64,000 nucleotides of DNA, from positions 62,001-126,000 of the forward strand of contig JAIPJY010000004.1 of the NCBI GenBank assembly GCA_021733925.1. Reading direction: 5' to 3'. The first letter of the stretch is position 1; the number at the start of each line of letters is the position of its first letter. A program made the position numbers and the translations under genes. The notes under the pieces were generated by a model, which ran no database searches, had not been told where the DNA came from, and was given only the letters and a program-made list of their open reading frames with translations. Below, piece after piece: positions 11,826-53,269 of the stretch. This DNA comes from Prosthecobacter sp. (lineage in GTDB: Bacteria; Verrucomicrobiota; Verrucomicrobiia; Verrucomicrobiales; Verrucomicrobiaceae).

Positions 11826-11867
11826 AAAATGACGAATGACGAATGACGAATGTCGAATGATATGAGG
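11826..11867. repeat. GACGAAT 7-mer repeat array, solo copy
   Basis: Tandem array of the 7-mer GACGAAT, with one GTCGAAT variant, beginning one base after the VOC stop and ending gaatgatatgagg. The order and the end (gaatgat.tgagg) match the array at 42213-42253 next to the S23-type gene. Here no S23 gene is present. It lies between the VOC gene and thiH. Confidence 0.8.
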
Positions 11868-13292: not shown

Positions 13293-13739
13293 GTGGAGGC
13301 AGAATGACTAATCTCGAAGCCGGAATGCCGAATGGCGGAGGGCTGGCATTCGGTGGTCATTCGTGCGCTTGGCAGATGCGCGGCGGGACTCCTTGCAGAC
13401 GCTGCTGGTGAGCACGGGGTGCGGCGGAGTGCTGGGTTTGCTTCCCGTTTTTGTGGTGATAAACCCAGGGAAGCACTCGCTAAAGCTAGGCATCCCTGGG
13501 CTGAAAGACGAAAGGCCGTTGGCCTTCAAGTCCGTCTGGATCGAAGTTCGTAGTGATGAATATCAGGAAGTGTGAAAACGTGGCCAGCGTGTCAGGTCTA
13601 TTGAGAGAGTCGGGGCAGGCTTCGCGCTTGATTCAACAGTGGCAGTGAAGGGCGAACGTGGAACTCTTGGAGCACTGGGGTGTGGCGGAGCGCTGGGATC
13701 GAGGACGAGTTCGAGTAGGTGGACGAGAACGATTTTGAA
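13293..13739. repeat. Intergenic region with a third copy of the GC-rich dispersed repeat
   Basis: No gene is supported. At about 13376-13445 it carries the element core (ccttgcagacgctgctggtg ... gctgggtttgcttcc) that also occurs at 8584, 8834 and 26085. Its right half differs: a CCCAGGG/CCCTGGG inverted repeat at about 13467-13501. A degenerate relative of the GACGAAT array (gaatgccgaatggcgg) lies at about 13322-13337. Short open frames here look like repeat read-through. Confidence 0.7.
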
Positions 13740-40359: not shown

Positions 40360-41222
40360 GTGACGAGGCCTCCGCGACGCAGCAGATCTGTGATGACGGA
40401 CTCAAACGACACGTCGGTGTTGGTGGAGAGGAAGCCGAGGCCGCGTTTGGCGCAGGTCTGCTTCAGGCCGAGATTCCATTCGGCCATGGCGTCTTCGTAG
40501 AGTTTTGCTTCGCGGGGGGAGATGGTCACGCGTTCGCTTTTTCCGGTCTCGACGCATTCGAGGGTGACGTCCCCTTTCCACTCACAGCGGAGGTCGTTGT
40601 CGTCGAGGGTTTGCAGGCAGAAGACTTCGTGCTTGTGCCATTGCAGACGGCTGAGTCCTTCTTCGAAGCCGCCGGGGAGGAGGAAATCGGAGATGACGCA
40701 GATGAGGCCTTTGCGGCGGTGGCGTGCCTCAAACTCGCGGGCGCAGGCGCTGAGATCGGTGTTGCCGCCAAAGGTGGTTGCGGCCTCCAATGAGCGCAGA
40801 AATGGGATGACCTGATTGCGGCCGCGTGAGGGCTCGATCAGCGGCTGCAAGCGATCTGCCAGACCGTAAACGGCGAGGCGGTCGAGGGTGTTGAGGGCGA
40901 TGTATCCCAGGGCTGCGGCGAGTTGCTTTGCATACTCGTGCTTGGAAGCCATGGAGGGGCTGCAATCGATGAGGAGGTAGATGGTGGCGTCTTCCTCCAG
41001 TTCGAAGAGCTTGATGAGCAGCGACTCGAACTTGGCGTAAACGAGCCAGTCGATGCTGCGGTAGTCGTCGCCGAGTGAGTACTGCGCATAATCGGCAAAG
41101 GTGATGCCGGAGCCTTTTTTCGTGCTGCGACGATCCGACTGCAACGAGCCGCCCAGGATCTTGCGCGCGAGCAAGTAGAGCGATTCGAGGCGGCGGATGA
41201 AGGCTGGATCGGTGAGCGTCAT
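40356..41222 (-). CDS. DUF58 domain protein (BatB/MoxR-associated)
   Basis: Soluble DUF58 protein of 288 residues. The conserved block has SGITFADYAQYSLGDDYRSI followed by DW, and the VWA-like part LLIDCSPSMASKHEYAKQLA has the MIDAS-like DCSPSM. It sits between moxR and the BatA-like gene and overlaps both by four bases, the conserved order for this module. Confidence 0.93.
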   Translation of the reverse strand: MTLTDPAFIRRLESLYLLARKILGGSLQSDRRSTKKGSGITFADYAQYSLGDDYRSIDWLVYAKFESLLIKLFELEEDATIYLLIDCSPSMASKHEYAKQLAAALGYIALNTLDRLAVYGLADRLQPLIEPSRGRNQVIPFLRSLEAATTFGGNTDLSACAREFEARHRRKGLICVISDFLLPGGFEEGLSRLQWHKHEVFCLQTLDDNDLRCEWKGDVTLECVETGKSERVTISPREAKLYEDAMAEWNLGLKQTCAKRGLGFLSTNTDVSFESVITDLLRRGGLVT

Positions 41223-42199
41223 GCCTTCACCTTTTCGATCACATCGGCGATGACTTCGTCGGTCTTCACGCCTTCGGCTTCGCCTTCGAACGAAAGCAGA
41301 ATGCGATGACGCAGAGCGGGAGTGGCGGCTTTGGCGATGTCCTCACGAGCGACGTGGTAGCGGCCATCGAGAAGAGCACGCACGCGAGCGGCGGCGAGGA
41401 TGGTCTGTGCACCGCGAGGAGAGGAGCCGTGGCGGACGTATTTTTTGACGCGTTCCGTGGCGTTGACATCGGTGGGGTGGGTAGCGCGGACAATCTTGAC
41501 GAGGTAGTCCTGCACGCTGGCCTCCACTGGGACTTCGCGCACGACCTGTCCCATTTGCAGGATGTCTTCACCGGTGGCGACGGCGTTGATCTCTGGGGAT
41601 GATTTGCCGCCGGTGCGGTTGAGGATTTCGATGAAGTCACCGTGGCTGGGAACGGGGACGTAGAGCTTGAAGAAGAAGCGGTCGAGCTGGGCTTCGGGGA
41701 GCGGGTAGGTGCCGTCCTGCTCGATGGGGTTTTGCGTGGCGAGGACAAAGAAGGGCGAGCCGAGATTGTGCGAGGTGCCGGCGACGGTGACGCGCTTTTC
41801 CTGCATGGTTTCGAGGAGCGCGGACTGCGTTTTGGGAGTGGCGCGGTTGATTTCATCGGCGAGCAGCACGTTGCAGAAGACGGGGCCCTGCTGGAACTCG
41901 AAGACTTTCTGGCCGCCACGTTCGACGAGGATCTGCGTGCCGACGATGTCGGCTGGGAGAAGGTCGGGCGTGAACTGGATGCGCTGGAATTTGAGGTGCA
42001 GAGCCTTGGCAAGCGTGTTTACCAATGCGGTTTTGCCGAGGCCGGGAACGCCTTCGAGCAGGACGTGACCGCCGCAGATGACGGCGCTGAGCACCTGCTC
42101 AATGATGTCCTGCTGCCCGACGATGAATTTGGAGACTTCGGCTCTGAGTTTTTCGAACGTTTCCTTGAAGTGAACAACGGCAACGGGAGTTTCGGGCAT
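41219..42199 (-). CDS. MoxR-family AAA+ ATPase
   Basis: AAA+ ATPase of 326 residues. Walker A: LLEGVPGLGKTALVNTLAKA. Walker B: NVLLADEINRATPKTQSALL. Sensor 1: FFVLATQNPIEQDGTYPLPE. C-terminal lid: RHGSSPRGAQTILAAARVRA. MoxR proteins act as chaperones for metal insertion or complex maturation, usually with VWA partners, as here. The ATG at 42199 lies just past the inverted-repeat cassette that carries the S23-type gene. Confidence 0.95.
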   Translation of the reverse strand: MPETPVAVVHFKETFEKLRAEVSKFIVGQQDIIEQVLSAVICGGHVLLEGVPGLGKTALVNTLAKALHLKFQRIQFTPDLLPADIVGTQILVERGGQKVFEFQQGPVFCNVLLADEINRATPKTQSALLETMQEKRVTVAGTSHNLGSPFFVLATQNPIEQDGTYPLPEAQLDRFFFKLYVPVPSHGDFIEILNRTGGKSSPEINAVATGEDILQMGQVVREVPVEASVQDYLVKIVRATHPTDVNATERVKKYVRHGSSPRGAQTILAAARVRALLDGRYHVAREDIAKAATPALRHRILLSFEGEAEGVKTDEVIADVIEKVKA

Positions 42200-42212: not shown

Positions 42213-42725
42213 AAATGTCGAATGACGAATGCAGAATGACGAATGATCTGAGGAGAGATGCTTTCTGGCGTTTACTTTTGAGTGGCTTTGAGATTTTCTT
42301 TGGCGGAACGGCGTATACGGGAAAAGATGAGGTGGAGTTCGTCGGCTTCACGCCAGAGGAGAATGGCCGACTCTCGCAGTTCAGGGCAGGCTTTGACCAA
42401 CATGCGAATGAAGAATTTACATTCACGCGCCTCTTTGCGGCAGGTACCGATGATGTTGATAAAATCTTTTTTAGAAACGGCATCGTCAGCCTCAACATAG
42501 TTGGCACCGACGCTGGTTCCACAGCCCGTGAGCTGATCAACCAGTCGATTCGTCCGCGAGCTCATCGGCACTTGTTTCAAAAAGTCGATGATTGCCTCTC
42601 CATATCTAGCTGTCCGTTCTTCCAAATCATAAACACCCGCATATGGCGACGCGACGCCTTCACGAACCACCCTCTGGCTGCTCGCATCATCCTCCCACGG
42701 CGCACTGATCATACCATTCGTCATT
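42213..42725. mobile_element. Candidate small cassette: S23-type gene bracketed by inverted GACGAAT repeats
   Basis: The plus strand has AATGACGAATG at 42221-42231 and again at 42235-42245, and its exact reverse complement CATTCGTCATT at 42715-42725. These face each other across the four-helix-bundle gene. The 3' end of the upstream coiled-coil gene (stop 42721-42723) lies within the right repeat, and moxR starts 13 bases beyond the left one. The interval has no transposase. Inserted origin is an inference from the arrangement and the recurrence of the repeat at 11826 and about 32946. Confidence 0.55.
42272..42724 (-). CDS. Four-helix-bundle protein (S23/23S rRNA intervening-sequence type)
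   Basis: Protein of 150 residues. After about 30 poorly conserved residues it shows the S23 family core: YDLEERTARYGEAIIDFLKQ, then GCGTSVGANYVEADDAVSKK and IGTCRKEARECKFFIRMLVK. These proteins form four-helix bundles; related ones (bAvd) accompany diversity-generating retroelements, but most are unassigned. Its first codons (ATGACGAATGG, giving MTNG) come from the GACGAAT repeat, so the true start may be further inside. It interrupts an operon whose other members are functionally linked. Confidence 0.88.
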   Translation of the reverse strand: MTNGMISAPWEDDASSQRVVREGVASPYAGVYDLEERTARYGEAIIDFLKQVPMSSRTNRLVDQLTGCGTSVGANYVEADDAVSKKDFINIIGTCRKEARECKFFIRMLVKACPELRESAILLWREADELHLIFSRIRRSAKENLKATQK

Positions 42726-44388
42726 GGTCGTTTTTAACCTGCTGGATGCCTTTGAAGTATTCTTTGACGCCTTCTTTGACTTCGGCGGGCACGTCTTCGC
42801 GCTGGATGAAACTTTCAACCTGACGCTGGAAGGCTTTTTCCTGCAGGGTGGCGGTGCGGGTGGCGCGGCCGCTGCCGCTGTCGGCGGATTCGATGCTGGT
42901 GTTGCTGGGGCCGCTGCCTTTCTGGCCGGTGAGCTGGTCACGGTTGCCGTTGTCCTGCGTGGCATCGCTTTCAGCACGACGGCTTTCGACGGTGCCGGAG
43001 CCGGCCTTTTTGCCGCCGGGTTTGGTGCCCAGGCACTGGCTGAGGCTCTGGCCTTCCTTGTTGCACATGAAGCCCTGGCACTTGCCCGCGCACTGGCTGA
43101 GCGATTGCAGTTTCTTCATCATGTCGCGCTTGGCGGATGACTGGCACATGCTCTGAGAAAGTTTTTGAAGAGCTTGATTGGCCTGGTTTTGGCAGGCCTT
43201 ACACTCACTGGGATTTTGATTTGGATTCTGCTGCTGTTGCTGGAGCTGCTGTTCCAGATTTTGCACGGACTGTTCCAGCGCGGTCATCTGCTGATCCATG
43301 CTCTGCTGTCCCTGACTGCCCTGCTGGCCTTGGGACTGCTGCTGGTTTTGGCCGCTTTGCTGGGCGTTCTGGTTCTGGCTGGACTGCGACTGATTGCCTT
43401 TGCCTTGATTGCCCTGCTGGCCGGTGCGCTGCTGGAAGTTACGCGCGGCGGCGGCCATGCGCTGGGAGGCGGACTTGAGCTTGGCGAGTTCTTTTTGTGC
43501 TTCGTCGGGTTTGCGGACGTCGGCCTGGAGCTTCATCTGGCGCAGCTGCTCGGCGGCCTGGCGGTAATTTTGTTCTTCGAGAGATTTGGAGATGGGCTTG
43601 AGCTCGGCGGTCTGCTTCATTTCCTGAGCGGCTTTGGCGAGAAGCTGCTCGGTGTCGCGCTGGCTGAGCTTTTGTGCGGCCTCGGTGATCTTGCGCTCAA
43701 GTTCGGCGTACTGGCGCATCGCCTCTTTGCGGTCTTTGGTCTCGCGCAGTTCTTTGACCCATTGCCGCCATTCGTCGGGATGCAGGAGTTCCTTTTCCTC
43801 ATCGGTGGCGGTTTTGAGCAGTTCCTCGACCTCCTTTTCGAGCTCCTTGTTGATTTCGTCGCTCTTGTTCAGGGTCTCTGTTTCCAGTGCGATGCGTTCG
43901 AGGACGATGGGGGAGTCTTTTTTGAAACCCATGACGAAGCAGGCCATCAGCAGCACGCCGGCGATGGTGAGCATGCGCCGCGGCCACTGCACCGGAATGC
44001 TGCGAGGTGAGAGCGTCTGCACGCGGACGGCGGTGGCCTCTGCCTGAAGGGCGATGAACTCTCCCTCGCGATGCTCGTCATTGAAACCCAGGTGCGAGCT
44101 GATGGCGTCTTTCAAATCGAAGTGGTCATCGGCGATGCGCGCGGCTTTGCGCTGAGAGGCACGGCCGAACAGCCAAGCCGCGAGCGCCATGACGGGCAAG
44201 GCGACCCCCGCAGCGATGTAACCGCTCGCCGGCACGGCGTACCCGCGCAGGACCCAAACCAGGCACCACATGCAAAGTGCGGAGCCGATGATGAGGAGAG
44301 AGACGCAGAATGCCCGGACGAGCCAGGCGAGATCTAGACGTGCTTTCACAGCTGACAGAAACGCGAGGATTCGATCGTGAGCGGGCAT
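42721..44388 (-). CDS. Membrane protein with Gln-rich, Cys-rich coiled coil (DUF4175-like)
   Basis: Protein of 555 residues. Three transmembrane segments lie in the first 200 residues (AWLVRAFCVSLLIIGSALCM, SGYIAAGVALPVMALAAWLF and MLTIAGVLLMACFVMGFKKD). A long coiled coil (EINKELEKEVEELLKTATDE) follows, then a region made largely of Gln, Asn and Ser. Next comes a Cys cluster with about eight Cys (CKACQNQ, SMCQSS, QCAGKCQGFMCNKEG, SQCLGTK) and a Gly/Ser-rich tail. The last codons KNDQ-stop run into the GACGAAT repeat. The arrangement recalls DUF4175-type proteins beside MoxR modules. ATG at 44388 is preferred to 44496 because the helix starts soon after it. Confidence 0.8.
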   Translation of the reverse strand: MPAHDRILAFLSAVKARLDLAWLVRAFCVSLLIIGSALCMWCLVWVLRGYAVPASGYIAAGVALPVMALAAWLFGRASQRKAARIADDHFDLKDAISSHLGFNDEHREGEFIALQAEATAVRVQTLSPRSIPVQWPRRMLTIAGVLLMACFVMGFKKDSPIVLERIALETETLNKSDEINKELEKEVEELLKTATDEEKELLHPDEWRQWVKELRETKDRKEAMRQYAELERKITEAAQKLSQRDTEQLLAKAAQEMKQTAELKPISKSLEEQNYRQAAEQLRQMKLQADVRKPDEAQKELAKLKSASQRMAAAARNFQQRTGQQGNQGKGNQSQSSQNQNAQQSGQNQQQSQGQQGSQGQQSMDQQMTALEQSVQNLEQQLQQQQQNPNQNPSECKACQNQANQALQKLSQSMCQSSAKRDMMKKLQSLSQCAGKCQGFMCNKEGQSLSQCLGTKPGGKKAGSGTVESRRAESDATQDNGNRDQLTGQKGSGPSNTSIESADSGSGRATRTATLQEKAFQRQVESFIQREDVPAEVKEGVKEYFKGIQQVKNDQ

Positions 44389-44449
44389 GGTGTGCGGAAT
44401 TGCTGAGTTTTTACCAGAGAGAGACGTTTGGGACAAGACATTGCTTGGG

Positions 44450-47400
44450 TTACTTGGAGAGACGCGTGAGGGCGGCCTCGACAGTTTTTTTAACACCGGG
44501 ACCCAAGCGCTTCTCGTCGAGCGATTTAAGGACTTGCAGAGCTTCGGGCTTTTTGCCGGTGCGTTCGAGGATTTCGGCCTGCTTCACGGCATACCCGGCG
44601 GCGAGACCGTAGTCCTTCTCGTTTTCTTTGCGGGCCTGCTCAAAGGCCAGCGCATACAGGGGAGCGGCGGCGTCGTTTTTGCCGTTCGCGGCCAGCAGAT
44701 CGGCGGACTCGCTGGCGGTGCGGCCCATGCGGGGCAGTGCGGTGGCGATTTGTGCCGCCACGGGAGCGAACTCGTCAGGTTTGAAGACCGTGCCCTTTTG
44801 GACGATTTCGTTGATGAGATTGGGAATGCCCGGACCGGTGGCGGGATACTTTGCGGCACACCATTCATCCCTGGCCACGGCGGCGACAAGCTGGGCGCGC
44901 TGCTCCGGAGTGAGGCGCATCTTTTTCTGAGTGCCCGCGAACTGGCGAATGCAGGTCCAGATCTCCCAGCGTTCCTGCACGTGCTTTTTGAGATCGCGAC
45001 GGTCCTCCTCTTTCAAGCCTTTGCGCCATGATTCGAAGACGGCAGGCTCGTTGAGAATGAGATGGATCAGCCATTTCTGAGTCACGCAATCGGCGACATG
45101 CATGTCGCGCAGATCGGCGGGTGTTTTGGCAATGACATAGTCCAGGAAAGGCAAGACGGGGCGGACGTCCGGGGTGCGTCCGGCCTCGGACTCACGGGAC
45201 CAGTACCAGCCACCGACCCAGGTCGGCCCCCAGCCGGTTTCCTTGACGGCGGAGCGCTGGTAGTAGCTCTGGCTGTAGCGGGCGGCGAGAGCGCGGTCAT
45301 AGGCGGCGATGTTTGGCTGCACGTCACCATGCGCGGCCTTCCAGCCGAGTGAGAACTGCAGCGGCTTGAGCCGACGCCAGTGTTCCCAGGTTTCGTCGAT
45401 GGCAGCGAGCGCTTCGATGTCGGTCTTGGCGGCGACTTCATCGACAGCATCGCGGATCAGGTCTGCGGCGTCATAGAACTGGCTGATGATCTCGACGCAG
45501 TCTTTGCGCATCTCTGCATCGGTGAATTTGGTTTCCTTGAATCGTTTCGCGAGGTCTTTGAAGCGTTCTTCGCGGTTCTTGAAGCCTGGAATGGAGGCCT
45601 GATCGGGCTTGATGGGATCTTTGATGTAGGAGAGGTAGATCTCTCCCAGAAAAGCCAGGCCGGGGTCGTCACAGGCAGCTTTGAAGGCGGGCAGGTTTTC
45701 GATGATCTCCCTGCACCACAGCAGTTCTCTTTGGGGATCCTTCAAGAAGGTGCGCCAATTGGATTTGAAATGCTCTGCGGCGAGCTGCGGCTGACCGCCG
45801 AGCATGAGACTGACGATGCCGGATTGCTCGTTGCTAAGAGTGTTGTGATGCTGACGCAGCATCGTGCGCATCCAGTCATCGTTGCCTGCACGGGCGGTCA
45901 TGCGCAGCATGCTGTTGATGGCCCAGTCGTAGGGCTCGTATTTGCTGAGTCCGCCATTGGCGAGACGGGCCAGCCATGCATCCCAGTGTTCCTGAGCGGC
46001 GGCCTGCCACGCGGCATCGACCGGCAGGTGGTTGAAGGCACGGATGATCCAGCCGTATTGGAAACCGTGGATGCAGTGCTTTTGCTTCATGGATTCAAGC
46101 GCGGCGGCAGCGCCGAGTTTTGCGCATTCCGGGTCGATGTCGTCATGCGCCCAGTAGGAGAGAAAGTGGACGAGGGCCTGACGAACCCGCGCATTGGCCT
46201 TGTCTGAACGCAACAAGACGCGGTGGTGCTCCCACACGGGCTGCATGCCTCCCAGTTCTTGGATGGCTTTCTGAGTGGCGGCATTCTGCCGGGACTGAGC
46301 GTCCGTGCCGAGGAAGAACCGGCCTGCGAAATCGAACTCCCGGCCCAAGGCCGCCTGCGGATGGGTCGCGGGCATCCTGGCTGCATACTTCATGGCGGGC
46401 ACGCGCAGGCTCTGAGGCAGCTTGAAATAGAAATCATAGAAGGCCAGTGGCAGAAGTGTGTGGGGAGTGTCCTGCATGACCTCCGCCGTGCGCTTGAGCA
46501 TGGCGTCGATGCCTCGGCCCATGGCTGCACCGCCGCCGTTGTTGCGCCAGATTTCGAGCAATGCCTGGCCATAGCCGCTGTTGGCCGCCCAGCCGTCTGA
46601 AGACAGGTTGCCGGTGGTGTCCTCATGGCAGAGGCGCATGACAAAAGCCATCGTTTCCGGCTTGGGCCAGTCTTTCTTGAGTTCATCCAGAACATTGGAA
46701 CGGCGGAACCAGCCATTGCCCCCCATGTAGTTATCCCATGAGGTGTTGTGGGCTTTGGCCTCCATCATGTCACAGGCATGGAGAAAAAGTTTTTCAGCCT
46801 TTTCGAGGTCGCCTGGGATGAGGGATTTCAGCATCGCTTTGAGCTTGTCTGAGTAGCTGCTGGCGTCTGCATGAACATCCTCGGTGCGCACAGCGGCAAG
46901 CCAGCGGTCAACTTCGTCCATTGCCTTCCTGCGTTCGACGCCGAGGAGCGGATCGAGCACTTTCACCAAGGCGGGATCAGCACCGGCGGGCTGGTTGAGG
47001 GCGGGGATCTGCACTTTGATGAGCGCCATCATGGCGGGACCACTTTTTTCCGGAAGCTTGGCCACATCAGCCGCGCGCCGTTTCAGCAGCGCGGAAAGCG
47101 GACCGCCGGGGGCATCCTGCAGCAGTGCCTCACACAGCTCCATGCCGAAGGTGCGCTGCTTCAGCGCCGCCAGTCGGGAACGCAGTCCCAGCATGGTGTC
47201 ACGGTTCTCACGCACCTTTTTGATGAACTCCACCTGCAGGCAGCTTGGATCTTCCGGCAGGACCATCTTCTCCGCCGTCTCCATCCAGCCGAGCGCCCCG
47301 AGTGCGGCAAAGGCATGCTCGGATGACTTCATGACTGCGGCCATGCTGGAGGTGGTCCTGCGCGACCAGTTGGGATGTTCCGTGGCACCGACGAGAGAGG

Positions 47401-50400
47401 CCATTTGCAGACCTGCGCCAAAAGTCGCCGGCGTGCGCATGAGATTGTTGATGACCCGCAGCAAGGTGTAAGCGGAGGGATTGCTCATGGAACCGCCGCC
47501 GCCGTAATAGGCATTGATCGTGCTCTTCATGGCCTTATCCCAGGTGGTCTGATTGCTGCCGAGGGTCCCGGCAATAAGACGTGTCAGGAAGGTTGCCAGT
47601 CCAGACTCAGGGCTCATCTGCTGGCGCAAGGCGAGATAGTGGGTCACGGCATACCCCTCACTGAATCCGCTGTTTAGCTTCAAGCTCGAAGCGATTATCT
47701 CATCCAATGGCAGGCCTTCGATCCCGCGCTCTACCCAGCGGTCGATGAGCCACACCAGATTTTGATCACCTGCGTAGCTCGCACTGCTGCGTCCGCTGAG
47801 CGCGGTGAGGAAGGTTTTGGCATTTTGAGCGAATGCATCGGGCGAGCAGGACCAGACGTTCAACTGCGCGCGCAGAATGCTCTGCTGCGTGCTGTCCTGA
47901 GCTGCGGCGGCCAATGGCATGATCTCCTGCTCGGCTCGCTCCAATTGATTCTCCTTCCAGGCCTTCCAGATGAGAAACTCCGCCGGTGAGGGCGCCCAGA
48001 GGCCGGTCACCTCTTGAGAATAATGAAACCGACGCGTCGCAGCAGACCCGCGCTGCGAGCGTGCGGCAGCTTTGGCCGCCTCCAGCAACTGGCGGGCAGT
48101 GGTGGCCAGCTCATCGTTTTTTTGCCCGTCCTGGATCACCAGACAAGCAAATCTGCGAAAGCCTTCCTCCGCCAGCACGGGATGCCTCATCAGGGCCTGG
48201 CATAGCTGGTCATGCACTTCACGGCGCCTTTTTGCCTCGGGAGAAGTGGCAGGCAGGTAGAGATCATCACCATCCCTCTGAGCTGCACCCGGCCGGACAT
48301 ACATATTTGCCAGCCTGGGTTGCGACCGATACGTTTGATTCGCGATCACAGCGGGCAGATCGATCATCCATTCCAGGCCTCTCACGCCTGATCCCGAAGG
48401 TGCGGATTGCAGCATCCCTGCCAGCGCGGAGAAAATGCTCATCCGTGCCTCAAACGGCATCGCATCATCCTCGCGCAGCAGTTCGGCGATCTGATTTCCC
48501 ACGTTGCTCTGCTGGTAGGCGGAGAGCGGCACATCCGCCATCATCTTCACCGCACGCGCCGGATCAGCCGAAGCAGTCAGCGAGCACAAGTGCAGACGCG
48601 CCTCAAAATGCTTCGGGTTCATTTCCACCACTTTTTCAAGAGCCTTGATGGCTTTGGTTCTTTGGTCGATGAGCATCAGCAACTGCGCCTGCTCGTATAA
48701 TTTCGTCACCGTGGGATTCTCTCCGGGGTCAAAGACTGCCTGGATTTTTTCTGGGATGCCCGACCTGCCTGCAAGGCGCATGATCTCTCTGGCCCGGCTG
48801 GCTGCGTAGCTTTGATTACCGCTGCCGGCCATCGTCAGAACACGACGCAACTGAGTGACAGCCTCCTTCACGATGGCATCCTCATCTTTGCCTGCGACCA
48901 GCGTCTGCAGCTTTTTTGTATCAATGCTGGAACTGCTGACATAGCTGGAAGTGCGACGAGTCACTGAGGGCGCCATCATGGCGATGCGCGCCCACTGTTC
49001 TGCCTCTTCACTCATGTGCAGTGTCTTCATGGTGGCGACGAGCTCGTCCTTCTGCTCCACAGTCACGCGTGTGCTGCGCAGGCGGCGCAGGGCCATCTGC
49101 GCGGGCTCCAGCAGCGGGCTGCCCGCCTGCGGCTTCAGCTTCATCACGGCATGCGCCAACGCGGCGTCAAAAGCCGGGCGGACAGTGGACGGAATGTTCA
49201 TGCTGGAGGCGCGAATGAGGAGTTCCGCCGCACGATCGTACTCGTCCTCAATGCTGAACCATGAGGCCGCGAGCAGCAGGTCGTCCATGGAAGGATTCGG
49301 TGCAGAGATGAGCTGGGTGACTTCACGCGCCACGCGCTCACGGTAGCCGACCTTGTAATACAGCAGGGCACGCAAGGCCGGAGATTTCACGTTATCAATG
49401 AAGGGCTTTACTCCGACGTACTGCTCCAGCTCCGGCTCCAGCTTGTCGTTGTCATTCGGATTGTAGATGTCCTTGCGCCCGAAGTAGAGCACCAGAGTGC
49501 TGGGCAGCGTGGTGCCACCGGGAAACGGCAGGCGAGTGATCATTTCGCCAGAGGTGGCCTGAGAGCGGCTGTTGAACTGCGTGGTGAATTTCAACCACGA
49601 TTGACGTGTGGGCTCATGCTCCGACCAGAGCCGCACCTCGCGCTCCAGAAGGGCGACAAATTCCTTCCAGGCCTTCTGGGTGCGACAGGCGTTGGCCGCA
49701 TTGGGCATGCCAGTGCTGTAAACCTGGGCCTGCGTGTCCGGATCGGTCTGGTCGAGTTGACGCAAGAAAAGGGTGAGCATGCGCCTGCTCAGCGGCTCAG
49801 GCAGCGAATAAGATGGATCTCTTTCCTGCATGCTCTGACCACCGCCGATCATGAATCCCAAATAGAACCTCCCCGCGAAGGACTTACGCATCTCATCCGG
49901 CGACATTTTTTCCAGCGCGTCCACCGCCTCGGTGAGCAATGGCACGCCTTTTTCACTGTCTGACTTCACTGCATGTCTGGCGGCCTGAAAGGCAAGATCG
50001 GGGTATTTGGATTTAAAATGATCAAACGCACGTGCTGCGATTTCAAAAGAGACGTTTTGACCATTGCCGATGGCCAAGGCCAGCAACACGTCATCATTTG
50101 GATATTTTTCCAGAGCATCCGCGCTTTCTTGAATGCGAAAGTACTGGTCAATGTCGAGCGCATCGAGGTATTGAGCTCCAGGGATTCCCGCGCTTGTGGC
50201 CTCAGCAATCCAGGCTGCCTTTTTCTGCGCCACCTCCCCTTTCATGAGGGTGACTGCATGTGCCACCGACATCGAGTGGAGGACTTCCAGGCTGGAGGGA
50301 ATCATCACAGCCCTGCTGGCATTCTGCGCTGAGAAGCGCATCGAGTTCGAACGATAGTTGTAGGCCTGGTAGCTGCCGCCTCCTATCAGTCGAGCCAAGT

Positions 50401-53269
50401 CAACATAGCCCTCGGGCGTGCGCTTCTTCATCTCTTCCAGGTAATCGATCCTGGTGCTGACGATTTTTGCAGCAGCCGTGACGGAAGGCAGATCCTGGGA
50501 ATGTCCCATGAGCTGGATGAACATGGAAATAGCGGCATCAGTCCTGCCCTCCTCTTCAAGTGCGACCGCCTGGAGATATCCCAGCCGATAGTCCTGAGGA
50601 AAGCGACGAAGCAGCGGCTCCAGGAAACTGATGACCCGCTTCCAGTCCTGCAGCGCAGTCATGCTTTTCGCCAGAGTGAGGGCGTCATCGGCATCCATCT
50701 GTGCGCCGCCAGCGAGTTCGTAGAGCATGCGGTAGCCGGTGTTTGCATCGCCGTATTCGATTTCAATCGAGGCGATCATCTGCTGCACGCGTCCGCCTTT
50801 GGAACGGCCGGCGAGGCGCTGCAGCTCTTCGATGGCGCGCTTCCACTGCCCCATGTCCAGGTCCATGCGAGCGATCTGCATGGCCAGACTGGCATCATCG
50901 GGACGCAGACGCATGGCCTCACGCAACGCACGCTCCTGCTCCGTGGTGCTGCCAGCCACACGATAGATCTCCGAAAGGGCCAGCCACGGAGCGGCATCGG
51001 CACGATTGGTGCGCTGACGTTCGAGGAATTTTTCGGTGAGCGCCTTCAACTGCCCGCGATCGCTGGCCAAGCGAGCCAGGGTGCCGACCCAGCGCATTTT
51101 GGCATCTGGCTTGTCCTCTTTCTCAAACAGAGAGAGGTAGACCCGTTCAGCGTCAGTCATCTGACCTTGTTCGATGTAGGCGGAGGCCAGTGAGTCCGCC
51201 ACCGCCTCATCGTCTTCAAACTTGCGCACGGCCGCCTGCAGTACCTTTAAAGCCTCGCGGCCTTTGCCATTGAGCTGCATCAGCCTGGCTTCGCGCAGCC
51301 AGGGAGAGGCTGAGCCGGGAGAAAGGGTCTTCCATTCCGCCACCCACTTCAGTGCCTGATCTGGTTTTCCCGAACGCTCTGTCAGGTCCACGAGACGCTG
51401 AATGTTGGTGGAATTTCTACCCAGAGGCATGGCGATGAGTTTTTCCGCCTCCTCCGTGGCACGCAGCCAGTCCTGGCGGGATTCCATCAGCTTGATCAGC
51501 CGCGTCTGAGCCGCCAAGGCATGCTCCGCCGGGATCTCGCGCAAAGCTTTCTCCGCGCCAAGGTGGTCCTGTTTCTCTTCGAGCAGTGTGGCGAGCAGAA
51601 TGCGCTCCTGCACGGTCGGGGTGCTTTTTTGCAAAGAGGCCAAGGTTTCAGCCAACTTTGACTCATCTGCCTTCAGACATGCAACGGCCTGCCTCAGGGC
51701 ATCGTCCAAATGACTGACGTCTGACGTGGCCTGCACCCGTGCGAGAGCCCAAGGAATGGCCTCACCGGGTTTCTTGGAGCTGATGGCTGAATTGATCAGC
51801 AGGCCGAGGAAACGCTCATCTTTTGCAAACTCCGCCTGACGCGCCTGCAAGACTTCCAAAGCTGTCTGCGACTCAAGGCGAGTCATCAGTGCCTGGCCCA
51901 CGGCCATGACCTGAGACAGATCGCCGTTTTTTGCCAGATCACGCCAGATCACCAGAGCTGCGTCACGCTTGCCACTGCGATGGAGATAATGGGCCTGAGC
52001 TTCTTTTGCCGCATTGCTCTCAGGATAGGCAGCGACCATGCGCTCGTAGGCCAGGGTGGCATCGTCACCACGCTCCCAGCTTTCGTAGAGCCGCGCCACG
52101 CGGAGGTGGTCAAACTCTGCGGTGTCTTTCGCCGCCAGATACTTTTCCAAAGTGGCCTTAGAGGCTGCTTTGTCCTTTGCCCGTTCTTGCAGTGTTGCCA
52201 AGCGGATCAGGAGTTCGCGATCATCGGGTGACTGCTCCAGCAGGACGTTTGTTTGTGCGATGGCTTCTTTGAACTGCTCAAAGCGGGCGAGCAGATCAAG
52301 ATAGCTCTCACGCAGTTCCCGCTGGCCCGGTGTTTTTTGCAGCAGCGTTGCGTAGATGGCGAGAGCTTTGTCTTTTTCACCCAGCTCCGCGAGGACACGC
52401 GCGCGCTGCCGCTCCAGCGCCGTGCGCTGAGGATGGGCGGACTGCAGCTTTTCAAGCTCCTTCACCAGCCCGCTCAGATTCTCGTCACGACGAAACATCG
52501 CTTCGATTTGCGCCAGGACTTCGCCTTCGATCCAGGTGCCCTGGCCGGTGTCCGCCAGGGTTGAGGCCAGCAGGGCCAGAGCGGCTTCTTTTTTGGTGGC
52601 GCGCAGCTGGATCTCTGCCAAACGCAGCTGACGCACTGTCCTGGCATAGGCGTCTTTGGTTCTGGCAATCAACGCCAGCATCTGCGTTTCAGCCTCGGCA
52701 AACAGGCCTTCGTCGAGTTGCAGTTCAACCACTTCCTCCAACAGATCTTCGTCATCCGCGTTCGCCTTCACCAGATCCCGCCAGGCCTGCAAGGCAGCTT
52801 CCGGTTTGCCGGTGCGCAGCAGCCAGCGTCCGCGCATCTGGCCGATCTCACGGCCCAGTTCTGCATCCGCGCCGCCCTTTTCTGCTTCGGTGAGCGATTT
52901 CAGGGCAGACTCGAAATTCATCATCCGCGCCTCCAGTTTGGCGCGTTGCATCCAAGCCTGAGCGTTTGTCCCATCGCGCTCCAGGGCCGCTGTGTAGGCT
53001 TTCAAGGCTTCGGCCTCGTTGCCACGCTGGTCGTGAAAAATCGCCAGCACGAGCAGATCGGCGGTGGTGCTGGTGCGCTGGCTCAAAAAGTCCGAGAGTG
53101 AGTCCGCCGTGCCGGTTTCCATCCAAGCCGAGTAGAACCTGTCATAGACAAGACCGGCTTGAGGCCGCTTGAGAAGCATCTGGTGGTATTTATCCGCCTC
53201 GGCACCCGGCGGCACGGTCTGTCCGAAACATGCCATGGCCGAGACGAGGAAAATAAACCGGATTTTCAT
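44450..53269 (-). CDS. Giant secreted TPR-repeat protein (2,939 residues)
   Basis: Single open frame of 2,939 codons, by far the largest gene here. A signal peptide (MKIRFIFLVSAMACFGQT) starts it. From about residue 50 to beyond 900 it is dense with tetratricopeptide-like helix pairs (AEALKAYTAALERDGTNAQA; QKTPGQRELRESYLDLLARF). A further TPR set occurs near residue 1,550 (AIKALEKVVEMNPKHFEARL). The C-terminal half is helical and not assigned to a family. It ends with GLAAGYAVKQAEILERTGKK and TPR-like segments. It is the first gene of the MoxR/VWA operon, 61 bases ahead of the coiled-coil gene. A role as an extracytoplasmic scaffold is inference. Confidence 0.88.
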   Translation of the reverse strand: MKIRFIFLVSAMACFGQTVPPGAEADKYHQMLLKRPQAGLVYDRFYSAWMETGTADSLSDFLSQRTSTTADLLVLAIFHDQRGNEAEALKAYTAALERDGTNAQAWMQRAKLEARMMNFESALKSLTEAEKGGADAELGREIGQMRGRWLLRTGKPEAALQAWRDLVKANADDEDLLEEVVELQLDEGLFAEAETQMLALIARTKDAYARTVRQLRLAEIQLRATKKEAALALLASTLADTGQGTWIEGEVLAQIEAMFRRDENLSGLVKELEKLQSAHPQRTALERQRARVLAELGEKDKALAIYATLLQKTPGQRELRESYLDLLARFEQFKEAIAQTNVLLEQSPDDRELLIRLATLQERAKDKAASKATLEKYLAAKDTAEFDHLRVARLYESWERGDDATLAYERMVAAYPESNAAKEAQAHYLHRSGKRDAALVIWRDLAKNGDLSQVMAVGQALMTRLESQTALEVLQARQAEFAKDERFLGLLINSAISSKKPGEAIPWALARVQATSDVSHLDDALRQAVACLKADESKLAETLASLQKSTPTVQERILLATLLEEKQDHLGAEKALREIPAEHALAAQTRLIKLMESRQDWLRATEEAEKLIAMPLGRNSTNIQRLVDLTERSGKPDQALKWVAEWKTLSPGSASPWLREARLMQLNGKGREALKVLQAAVRKFEDDEAVADSLASAYIEQGQMTDAERVYLSLFEKEDKPDAKMRWVGTLARLASDRGQLKALTEKFLERQRTNRADAAPWLALSEIYRVAGSTTEQERALREAMRLRPDDASLAMQIARMDLDMGQWKRAIEELQRLAGRSKGGRVQQMIASIEIEYGDANTGYRMLYELAGGAQMDADDALTLAKSMTALQDWKRVISFLEPLLRRFPQDYRLGYLQAVALEEEGRTDAAISMFIQLMGHSQDLPSVTAAAKIVSTRIDYLEEMKKRTPEGYVDLARLIGGGSYQAYNYRSNSMRFSAQNASRAVMIPSSLEVLHSMSVAHAVTLMKGEVAQKKAAWIAEATSAGIPGAQYLDALDIDQYFRIQESADALEKYPNDDVLLALAIGNGQNVSFEIAARAFDHFKSKYPDLAFQAARHAVKSDSEKGVPLLTEAVDALEKMSPDEMRKSFAGRFYLGFMIGGGQSMQERDPSYSLPEPLSRRMLTLFLRQLDQTDPDTQAQVYSTGMPNAANACRTQKAWKEFVALLEREVRLWSEHEPTRQSWLKFTTQFNSRSQATSGEMITRLPFPGGTTLPSTLVLYFGRKDIYNPNDNDKLEPELEQYVGVKPFIDNVKSPALRALLYYKVGYRERVAREVTQLISAPNPSMDDLLLAASWFSIEDEYDRAAELLIRASSMNIPSTVRPAFDAALAHAVMKLKPQAGSPLLEPAQMALRRLRSTRVTVEQKDELVATMKTLHMSEEAEQWARIAMMAPSVTRRTSSYVSSSSIDTKKLQTLVAGKDEDAIVKEAVTQLRRVLTMAGSGNQSYAASRAREIMRLAGRSGIPEKIQAVFDPGENPTVTKLYEQAQLLMLIDQRTKAIKALEKVVEMNPKHFEARLHLCSLTASADPARAVKMMADVPLSAYQQSNVGNQIAELLREDDAMPFEARMSIFSALAGMLQSAPSGSGVRGLEWMIDLPAVIANQTYRSQPRLANMYVRPGAAQRDGDDLYLPATSPEAKRRREVHDQLCQALMRHPVLAEEGFRRFACLVIQDGQKNDELATTARQLLEAAKAAARSQRGSAATRRFHYSQEVTGLWAPSPAEFLIWKAWKENQLERAEQEIMPLAAAAQDSTQQSILRAQLNVWSCSPDAFAQNAKTFLTALSGRSSASYAGDQNLVWLIDRWVERGIEGLPLDEIIASSLKLNSGFSEGYAVTHYLALRQQMSPESGLATFLTRLIAGTLGSNQTTWDKAMKSTINAYYGGGGSMSNPSAYTLLRVINNLMRTPATFGAGLQMASLVGATEHPNWSRRTTSSMAAVMKSSEHAFAALGALGWMETAEKMVLPEDPSCLQVEFIKKVRENRDTMLGLRSRLAALKQRTFGMELCEALLQDAPGGPLSALLKRRAADVAKLPEKSGPAMMALIKVQIPALNQPAGADPALVKVLDPLLGVERRKAMDEVDRWLAAVRTEDVHADASSYSDKLKAMLKSLIPGDLEKAEKLFLHACDMMEAKAHNTSWDNYMGGNGWFRRSNVLDELKKDWPKPETMAFVMRLCHEDTTGNLSSDGWAANSGYGQALLEIWRNNGGGAAMGRGIDAMLKRTAEVMQDTPHTLLPLAFYDFYFKLPQSLRVPAMKYAARMPATHPQAALGREFDFAGRFFLGTDAQSRQNAATQKAIQELGGMQPVWEHHRVLLRSDKANARVRQALVHFLSYWAHDDIDPECAKLGAAAALESMKQKHCIHGFQYGWIIRAFNHLPVDAAWQAAAQEHWDAWLARLANGGLSKYEPYDWAINSMLRMTARAGNDDWMRTMLRQHHNTLSNEQSGIVSLMLGGQPQLAAEHFKSNWRTFLKDPQRELLWCREIIENLPAFKAACDDPGLAFLGEIYLSYIKDPIKPDQASIPGFKNREERFKDLAKRFKETKFTDAEMRKDCVEIISQFYDAADLIRDAVDEVAAKTDIEALAAIDETWEHWRRLKPLQFSLGWKAAHGDVQPNIAAYDRALAARYSQSYYQRSAVKETGWGPTWVGGWYWSRESEAGRTPDVRPVLPFLDYVIAKTPADLRDMHVADCVTQKWLIHLILNEPAVFESWRKGLKEEDRRDLKKHVQERWEIWTCIRQFAGTQKKMRLTPEQRAQLVAAVARDEWCAAKYPATGPGIPNLINEIVQKGTVFKPDEFAPVAAQIATALPRMGRTASESADLLAANGKNDAAAPLYALAFEQARKENEKDYGLAAGYAVKQAEILERTGKKPEALQVLKSLDEKRLGPGVKKTVEAALTRLSK

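Follow-up and report, generated by a model that had tools for sequence, protein, structure and literature searches.

Why should a gene for a small four-helix-bundle protein, framed by short inverted repeats, lie inside a MoxR operon of Prosthecobacter sp.? We analysed the whole 64,000-nucleotide stretch of contig that carries this gene (the window) and compared its gene and repeat with those of the source genome, its relatives and other bacteria. The reading that we favour, with a probability of roughly 60%, is that inverted heptamer arrays and the S23 gene between them make up a cassette of one gene, inserted at a junction of the MoxR operon, similar in kind to the intervening sequences of 23S rRNA, with the array recognised by the S23 protein. 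Coordinates of the features are given in Table 1.

The S23-type identity of the gene is borne out by both family profiles, whose scores lie above the cut-offs for S23/IVP membership (33.8 bits for PF05635 and 24 bits for TIGR02436). Its MoxR neighbour is likewise borne out by matches to AAA_3 and AAA_lid_2. A Pfam search with the upstream host gene returned no match, and the VWA, coiled-coil and DUF58 names of the other operon genes are presumed from reading the sequences by eye. The operon is adjoined by a frame of 2939 aa (44450-53269 of the window) that looks rich in repeats by eye. We coined the label EERT subfamily in this analysis for the subfamily of the window S23 gene.

Table 1. Features of the S23 locus and of a second heptamer array in the window.
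Feature	Coordinates	Strand	Basis and remarks
S23 / four-helix-bundle gene	42272..42724	-	150 aa; PF05635 37.6 bits, TIGR02436 56 bits; PDB 2rld E=1.5e-8
Heptamer array, S23 3' side, four units + AATG, read inward	42214..42245	+	Sequence, repeat and pattern search
Inverted heptamer copy, S23 5' side	42715..42725	-	Holds upstream gene stop and S23 start
moxR, next gene of host operon	41219..42199	-	AAA_3 212.5 bits, AAA_lid_2 66.2 bits
Coiled-coil host gene upstream of S23	42721..44496	-	ORF; coiled-coil judged by eye
Heptamer array without adjoining S23 gene	11828..11859	+	Pattern search

The original prediction described exact inverted copies of one repeat on the two sides of the gene, and these are present: AATGACGAATG occurs at 42221-42231 and 42235-42245 on the forward strand and at 42715-42725 on the reverse strand. 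The gene boundaries that it placed in the right-hand repeat are there as well, with the TGA of the upstream gene (42721-44496, reverse strand) overlapping the S23 ATG (42724, reverse strand). The two forward copies close a longer array, at 42214-42245, whose units are AATGTCG, AATGACG, AATGCAG and AATGACG, followed by AATG. The two arms are unequal, since the exact 11-mer occurs once in the right arm and twice in the left. We scored such arms with a flank test, in which 350 nt from one side of a gene are locally aligned with the reverse complement of the other side and a score of 30 is the cut. The window pair scores 25, below the cut, and the orthologous cassette of the congener G011 is intact and scores 47 (L226 and L214 were left out of this scoring). 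Terminal inverted repeats, a trait of MITEs, are present in the cassette, weak in the window and clear in G011 and in orthologs of the L006 type.

The heptamer is not confined to this gene. With at most one mismatch the motif occurs 10 times in the window, against 1.17 copies expected from shuffles (0 of 100 shuffles reach 10). The second array of Table 1 lies directly after one gene and before another, which we read as thiazole-synthesis-like; single one-mismatch copies are found at 13324 and 32954. Across the whole genome, with up to two mismatches, there are 30 forward and 43 reverse matches (73), against 0 for a reversed control pattern. Thirty of the 73 were fetched and represent 23 distinct sites, one of which is an S23 cassette; the other 22 have no S23 gene alongside. 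The possibility, raised with the original prediction, that the repeats are unrelated to S23 genes genome-wide is to this extent partly true. An impression that the solo arrays are mostly palindromic was ruled out by the count of inverted partners within 260 bp, which exist at 6 of the 22 sites. Array counts in genomes with and without EERT S23 genes (medians 53 and 21) do not differ significantly (p=0.097). Two other repeats were noticed. One has a CCCAGGG core, at about 13380-13560 of the window, and by eye appears to recur by the left heptamer arm in three relatives (L230, L231 and L232); the other is a multi-copy family (L030:960-1060) with many matches in five congeners.

The source assembly holds nine S23 genes, seven of which reach 30 in the flank test (one of them, L001, scores higher in direct orientation); the window gene scores 25 and another 20. 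In several phyla, tandem 7-bp repeats often form an inverted pair of arrays around an S23 gene. A scan of GTDB with three EERT-type proteins of the source genome gave at least 520 relatives. Among the best 80 of these, 76 had enough flank, and inverted scores of 30 or more were obtained for 71 of the 76, against 9 of 76 in direct orientation and 27 of 1550 control placements inside the same loci. The corresponding inverted and direct counts are 51/65 and 11/65 for the S23 loci of the genus and order, 9/12 and 2/12 for cyanobacterial plasmids (from 12 of the 24 matching plasmid records), and 17/29 and 6/29 for the phylum sample, where one control placement per locus gave 1/29. When the test was placed at random in loci that had been retrieved for other genes, 23/840 and 3/240 placements reached the cut. 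Direct similarity exceeds inverted similarity at 4/76 GTDB EERT, 8/65 genus/order and 4/12 plasmid loci. These counts include orthologous or duplicate loci (L051 is the same locus as L250; L056, L057 and L059 are orthologs, as are L137 and L169) and leave out loci with short flanks (4 of the 80 GTDB EERT loci; L049, L055 and L060 of L040-L068; L221, L223; L260; L306). The GTDB loci come mostly from metagenome-assembled genomes, and single phylum labels may be wrong. On the cyanobacterial plasmids, S23 lies between cas6 and cas4 in two cases and between two ribonucleotide reductase genes in one (L275, L278, L276).

The arms are periodic, with a self-identity at lag 7 of 0.55, 0.55 and 0.78, other lags except 14 giving mostly 0.2 to 0.35. 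Their median length is 39 nt, or 5.6 heptamers. For 32 of the 65 genus/order loci, the left flank has its best partner in the right flank of its own locus, and for 48 of 65 this right flank ranks within the top three. Not all arms show a strict inward bias towards purine or G (97/125 and 91/125).

The sequence of the repeat follows the protein. Within the EERT subfamily the heptamer differs between loci and is common to both arms of one locus. Three CNAANNN units stand on both flanks of 34 of the 76 GTDB EERT loci, as against 0 of 1594 control placements and 1 of 101 other S23 loci (1/60, 0/12 and 0/29). Two units are found at 66 of the 76 and at 7 of the 77 loci from the genus/order set and the plasmids, of which five are EERT; the strict three-unit form is absent in all five EERT loci of the genus/order set. 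Other S23 subfamilies are framed by other units, for example (by eye) AAGTTTC, GGTTGGC, GGGAGAC, AACATTG and TTATGAT, and because each subfamily has another heptamer, a search for the exact heptamer around them was negative. Protein identity and arm similarity are correlated over non-orthologous pairs, both for 42 genus/order loci (rho 0.279, with 0 of 500 permutations as high) and for 65 GTDB EERT loci (rho 0.202, 1 of 500 permutations), a few EERT reading frames that are probably wrong (pairs below 0.3 identity) adding noise. Different S23 subfamilies have different heptamers, and within a subfamily the heptamer is conserved across phyla. The original prediction offered the four-helix-bundle protein as cargo or as part of the mobility of the cassette. 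The tracking of the S23 subfamily by the repeat makes the protein look like more than a chance passenger, yet one site has an SMI1/KNR4 gene between the same arms.

We examined two further gene families in the same set of related genomes. Genes of the GxxExxY family (PF13366; L330-L359) have inverted flanks scoring 30 or more in 17 of 24 cases and direct ones in 8 of 24, and their arms have an average period of 9 (self-identity 0.41 at lag 9 and 0.28 at lag 7). ParE genes gave 0 of 24 with 350-nt flanks and again with 700-nt flanks; six of 30 loci in each family were dropped for short flanks. An inverted-array layout is therefore not general to small accessory genes, and the period differs between protein families, being 7 for S23 and 9 for GxxExxY.

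These comparisons bear on the main non-adaptive rival to our reading, in which arrays grow by polymerase slippage and hairpin template switching keeps the arms alike by quasi-palindrome correction, with S23 passive and no recognition. Such correction proceeds by replication template switching within a hairpin. Variant heptamers common to the two arms of a locus fit this account, as does the abundance of lone arrays without S23, and slippage at 7-nt repeats has already been proposed (PMC4679880). It leaves unexplained why arms are so frequent at S23 genes when control placements (27/1550) and ParE genes (0/24) rarely or never have them, why repeat and S23 subfamily match across phyla, and why the period is 9 at GxxExxY genes. 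We consider it unlikely. Recognition of its own heptamer array by the S23 protein, as the cassette reading proposes, is the more probable case.

We compared orthologous junctions between relatives to see where the cassette is present. The junction of the window is filled in the source genome and in G011, and the cassette is absent in seven relatives. One of the seven (G001) retains one arm only, another (G002) has a remnant, and by eye the remaining five (G018, G017, G037, G023 and G020) have neither S23 nor an arm. Empty sites were what the original prediction proposed to look for. A repeat-free S23 gene, which would have told against it, did not turn up at this junction, where S23 occurs in two genomes only. 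Filled and empty alleles encode different C-terminal tails of the upstream protein. At a second junction, between moxR and the presumed DUF58 gene, 12 of the 20 fetched regions were comparable. Three hold S23 with paired arms, and one (G003) has the same arms around an SMI1/KNR4 gene. Three more hold the left arm with other small frames, and one has an SMI1/KNR4 gene with another array on one side. In two the genes are directly joined, and two lack a recognisable DUF58 start.

The original prediction of a non-autonomous mobile cassette divides into two parts. That the cassette is a discrete unit is well supported, because its inverted arms are paired, it is present or absent between congeners, and the same layout surrounds most S23 genes examined. 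As to movement, the cassette contains no transposase gene, filled and empty alleles at three sites showed no target-site duplication, their flanks being too diverged for a clear reading, and an all-against-all BLASTN of the fetched S23 loci, as distinct from whole genomes, yielded no recognisable recent cassette-only copy, the high-identity pairs extending into the flanks. Equal-scoring copies in G015 were rejected as a clean cassette copy, being a partly duplicated region. Viral carriage was also rejected: 38 pattern matches in viral contigs gave no confirmed relative. A tree of EERT proteins (75 rows and few columns, with five rows containing stops left out: L117, L121, L130, L146 and L157) requires six changes for Verrucomicrobiota, at least two of them forced by well-supported branches. 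Some transfer of EERT genes between phyla is likely; the few changes that the tree needs do not amount to evidence of frequent transfer. It is plausible that the cassette is non-autonomous and mobile, and we infer that it has moved.

A second rival ascribes movement to another protein. If the arms were ends for a trans-acting transposase or recombinase, S23 would be cargo, exchangeable for other small genes, as the SMI1/KNR4 gene within the same arms in G003 suggests. Gene-less short palindromes, counted above as arrays with a close inverted partner, agree with such ends, and one gene-less palindrome is present in the source genome and in G001 and absent from G002, G020, G012 and G011. Against this account, 0 of 21 Y1_Tnp loci of the source genome are tightly flanked by heptamers, with arrays farther off in two. 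In the gene-centred flank test 5 of 19 Y1-transposase loci reach 30, with palindromes of other types, and L069-L072 and L079 have inverted repeats that are not heptamer arrays. We therefore rejected mobilisation by RAYT as the main idea for the S23 cassette, action in trans being possible. A cargo role also leaves the subfamily-specific repeat unexplained, and we regard this explanation as fairly unlikely. A third rival supposes an immobile cassette whose arrays serve as operator or mRNA sites for the autoregulation of S23 expression. The arrays do immediately adjoin both ends of the gene, and TAACTGA heptamers just upstream of start codons have been proposed as post-transcriptional sites (PMC4679880). 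Presence and absence at orthologous junctions and the existence of arrays far from S23 genes both speak against it, and we think it very improbable.

Returning to the one-gene cassette that resembles an intervening sequence, intact copies are predicted to fold into a terminal stem. The RNA fold z is -8.42 for one intact cassette, -3.10 for the G011 ortholog of the window cassette and -0.42 for the window cassette. Nine cassettes, taken from the second junction or very similar to those there, retain a 42-pair stem in 87.7% of its cells. Covariation among the nine is weak: its score is 0.083, a value that 7 of 500 shuffles attain, and the number of pairs changed on both sides is 6, which 85 of 500 shuffles reach.

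How the S23 protein might act can be sketched from its relatives. PDB 2rld, an S23 relative, has five chains, and a five-bundle structure of Xcc0516 appears by title in the reference list of PMC10053308. The S23 protein, as a ring of five bundles, would read its own array, either as folded RNA or single-stranded DNA in the long stem or as DNA ends. The cassette would behave as the 23S rRNA intervening sequences that encode S23 do, with a stem and an S23 frame in the loop. A double-strand RNase may cut it out of the host transcript, and it could in this way be tolerated in operons. It would spread rarely, through host or trans-acting enzymes, and leave behind single arrays and short palindromes.

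A wider reading, which we hold tentatively and at less than even odds, would make these loci examples of minimal elements with a single gene, whose small protein product reads the inverted tandem arrays around that gene. The period would be set by the protein family (9 for the nuclease-like GxxExxY and 7 for S23, perhaps with one heptamer for each subunit of a five-membered ring, given arms of about that length). The rRNA intervening sequences would then be one niche of such elements and some intergenic heptamers their debris. From the parallel 9-bp layout around GxxExxY genes, the principle seems to extend beyond one family. S23/IVP genes are widespread (93 of 145 genomes of the phylum sample at E <= 1e-10), and the similar packaging of S23 relatives in several bacterial groups points to a kind of minimal DNA cassette that has drawn little notice. 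Should subfamily-specific heptamers be the general rule around S23 genes, it becomes testable what S23 does and where at least some intergenic heptamers come from.

Several known systems share parts of this picture. Like REP/BIME elements with RAYT and like MITEs, the repeats are short, inverted and intergenic, with many copies. As described in PMC3733652, one end of a REP/RAYT palindrome carries a conserved tag, GTAG or CGTC; unlike in those systems, the inverted flanks of some RAYT-like genes in the source genome are palindromes of other kinds and contain no heptamer arrays. A target-site duplication, a trait of MITEs, was not found at the sites compared, where the flanks are too diverged for a clear reading. 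The Avd protein of diversity-generating retroelements belongs to a homologous four-helix-bundle family (PMC10053308). Intergenic tandem units of 7 bp have been reported too: Beggiatoaceae and cyanobacteria have TAACTGA, Xanthomonas GGGAATC and Nostoc GGGGA(C/T)T. Such units often directly precede a start codon or, in Xanthomonas, form convergent inverted pairs (PMC4679880, PMC4692102). The text of these two papers has no mention of S23, four helix or intervening, and the arrays here differ from theirs in pairing around a gene family.

The parallel on which our reading draws is that of the 23S rRNA intervening sequences. As described in PMC4990558, these carry an S23 frame within terminal inverted repeats that form a long stem, are excised by RNase III, and have a sporadic distribution and suspected mobility, their origin and function being called unclear. 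The S23 cassettes share the frame between terminal inverted repeats capable of a long stem, the sporadic occurrence and the suspicion of mobility; RNase III excision is a feature of the rRNA case, and for the cassettes it is the potential for a stem that was computed. They differ in lying at protein-operon junctions (the window gene, between a protein gene and moxR, is thus outside the 23S rRNA location) and in having arrays on both sides, inverted and with a unit that is specific to the S23 subfamily. Our literature search, which left most subscription journals outside, found one link between S23 genes and heptamer arrays, in Coxiella. There, tandem heptamers whose number varies between strains stand just before the S23 start of the intervening sequence, no sign of S23 being made in vivo is reported, and the authors consider the RNA more important than the protein (PMC4990558). 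These heptamers favour the reading of the cassette as akin to an intervening sequence, and the Coxiella case ties heptamers, S23 and stem together in an independently found rRNA setting.
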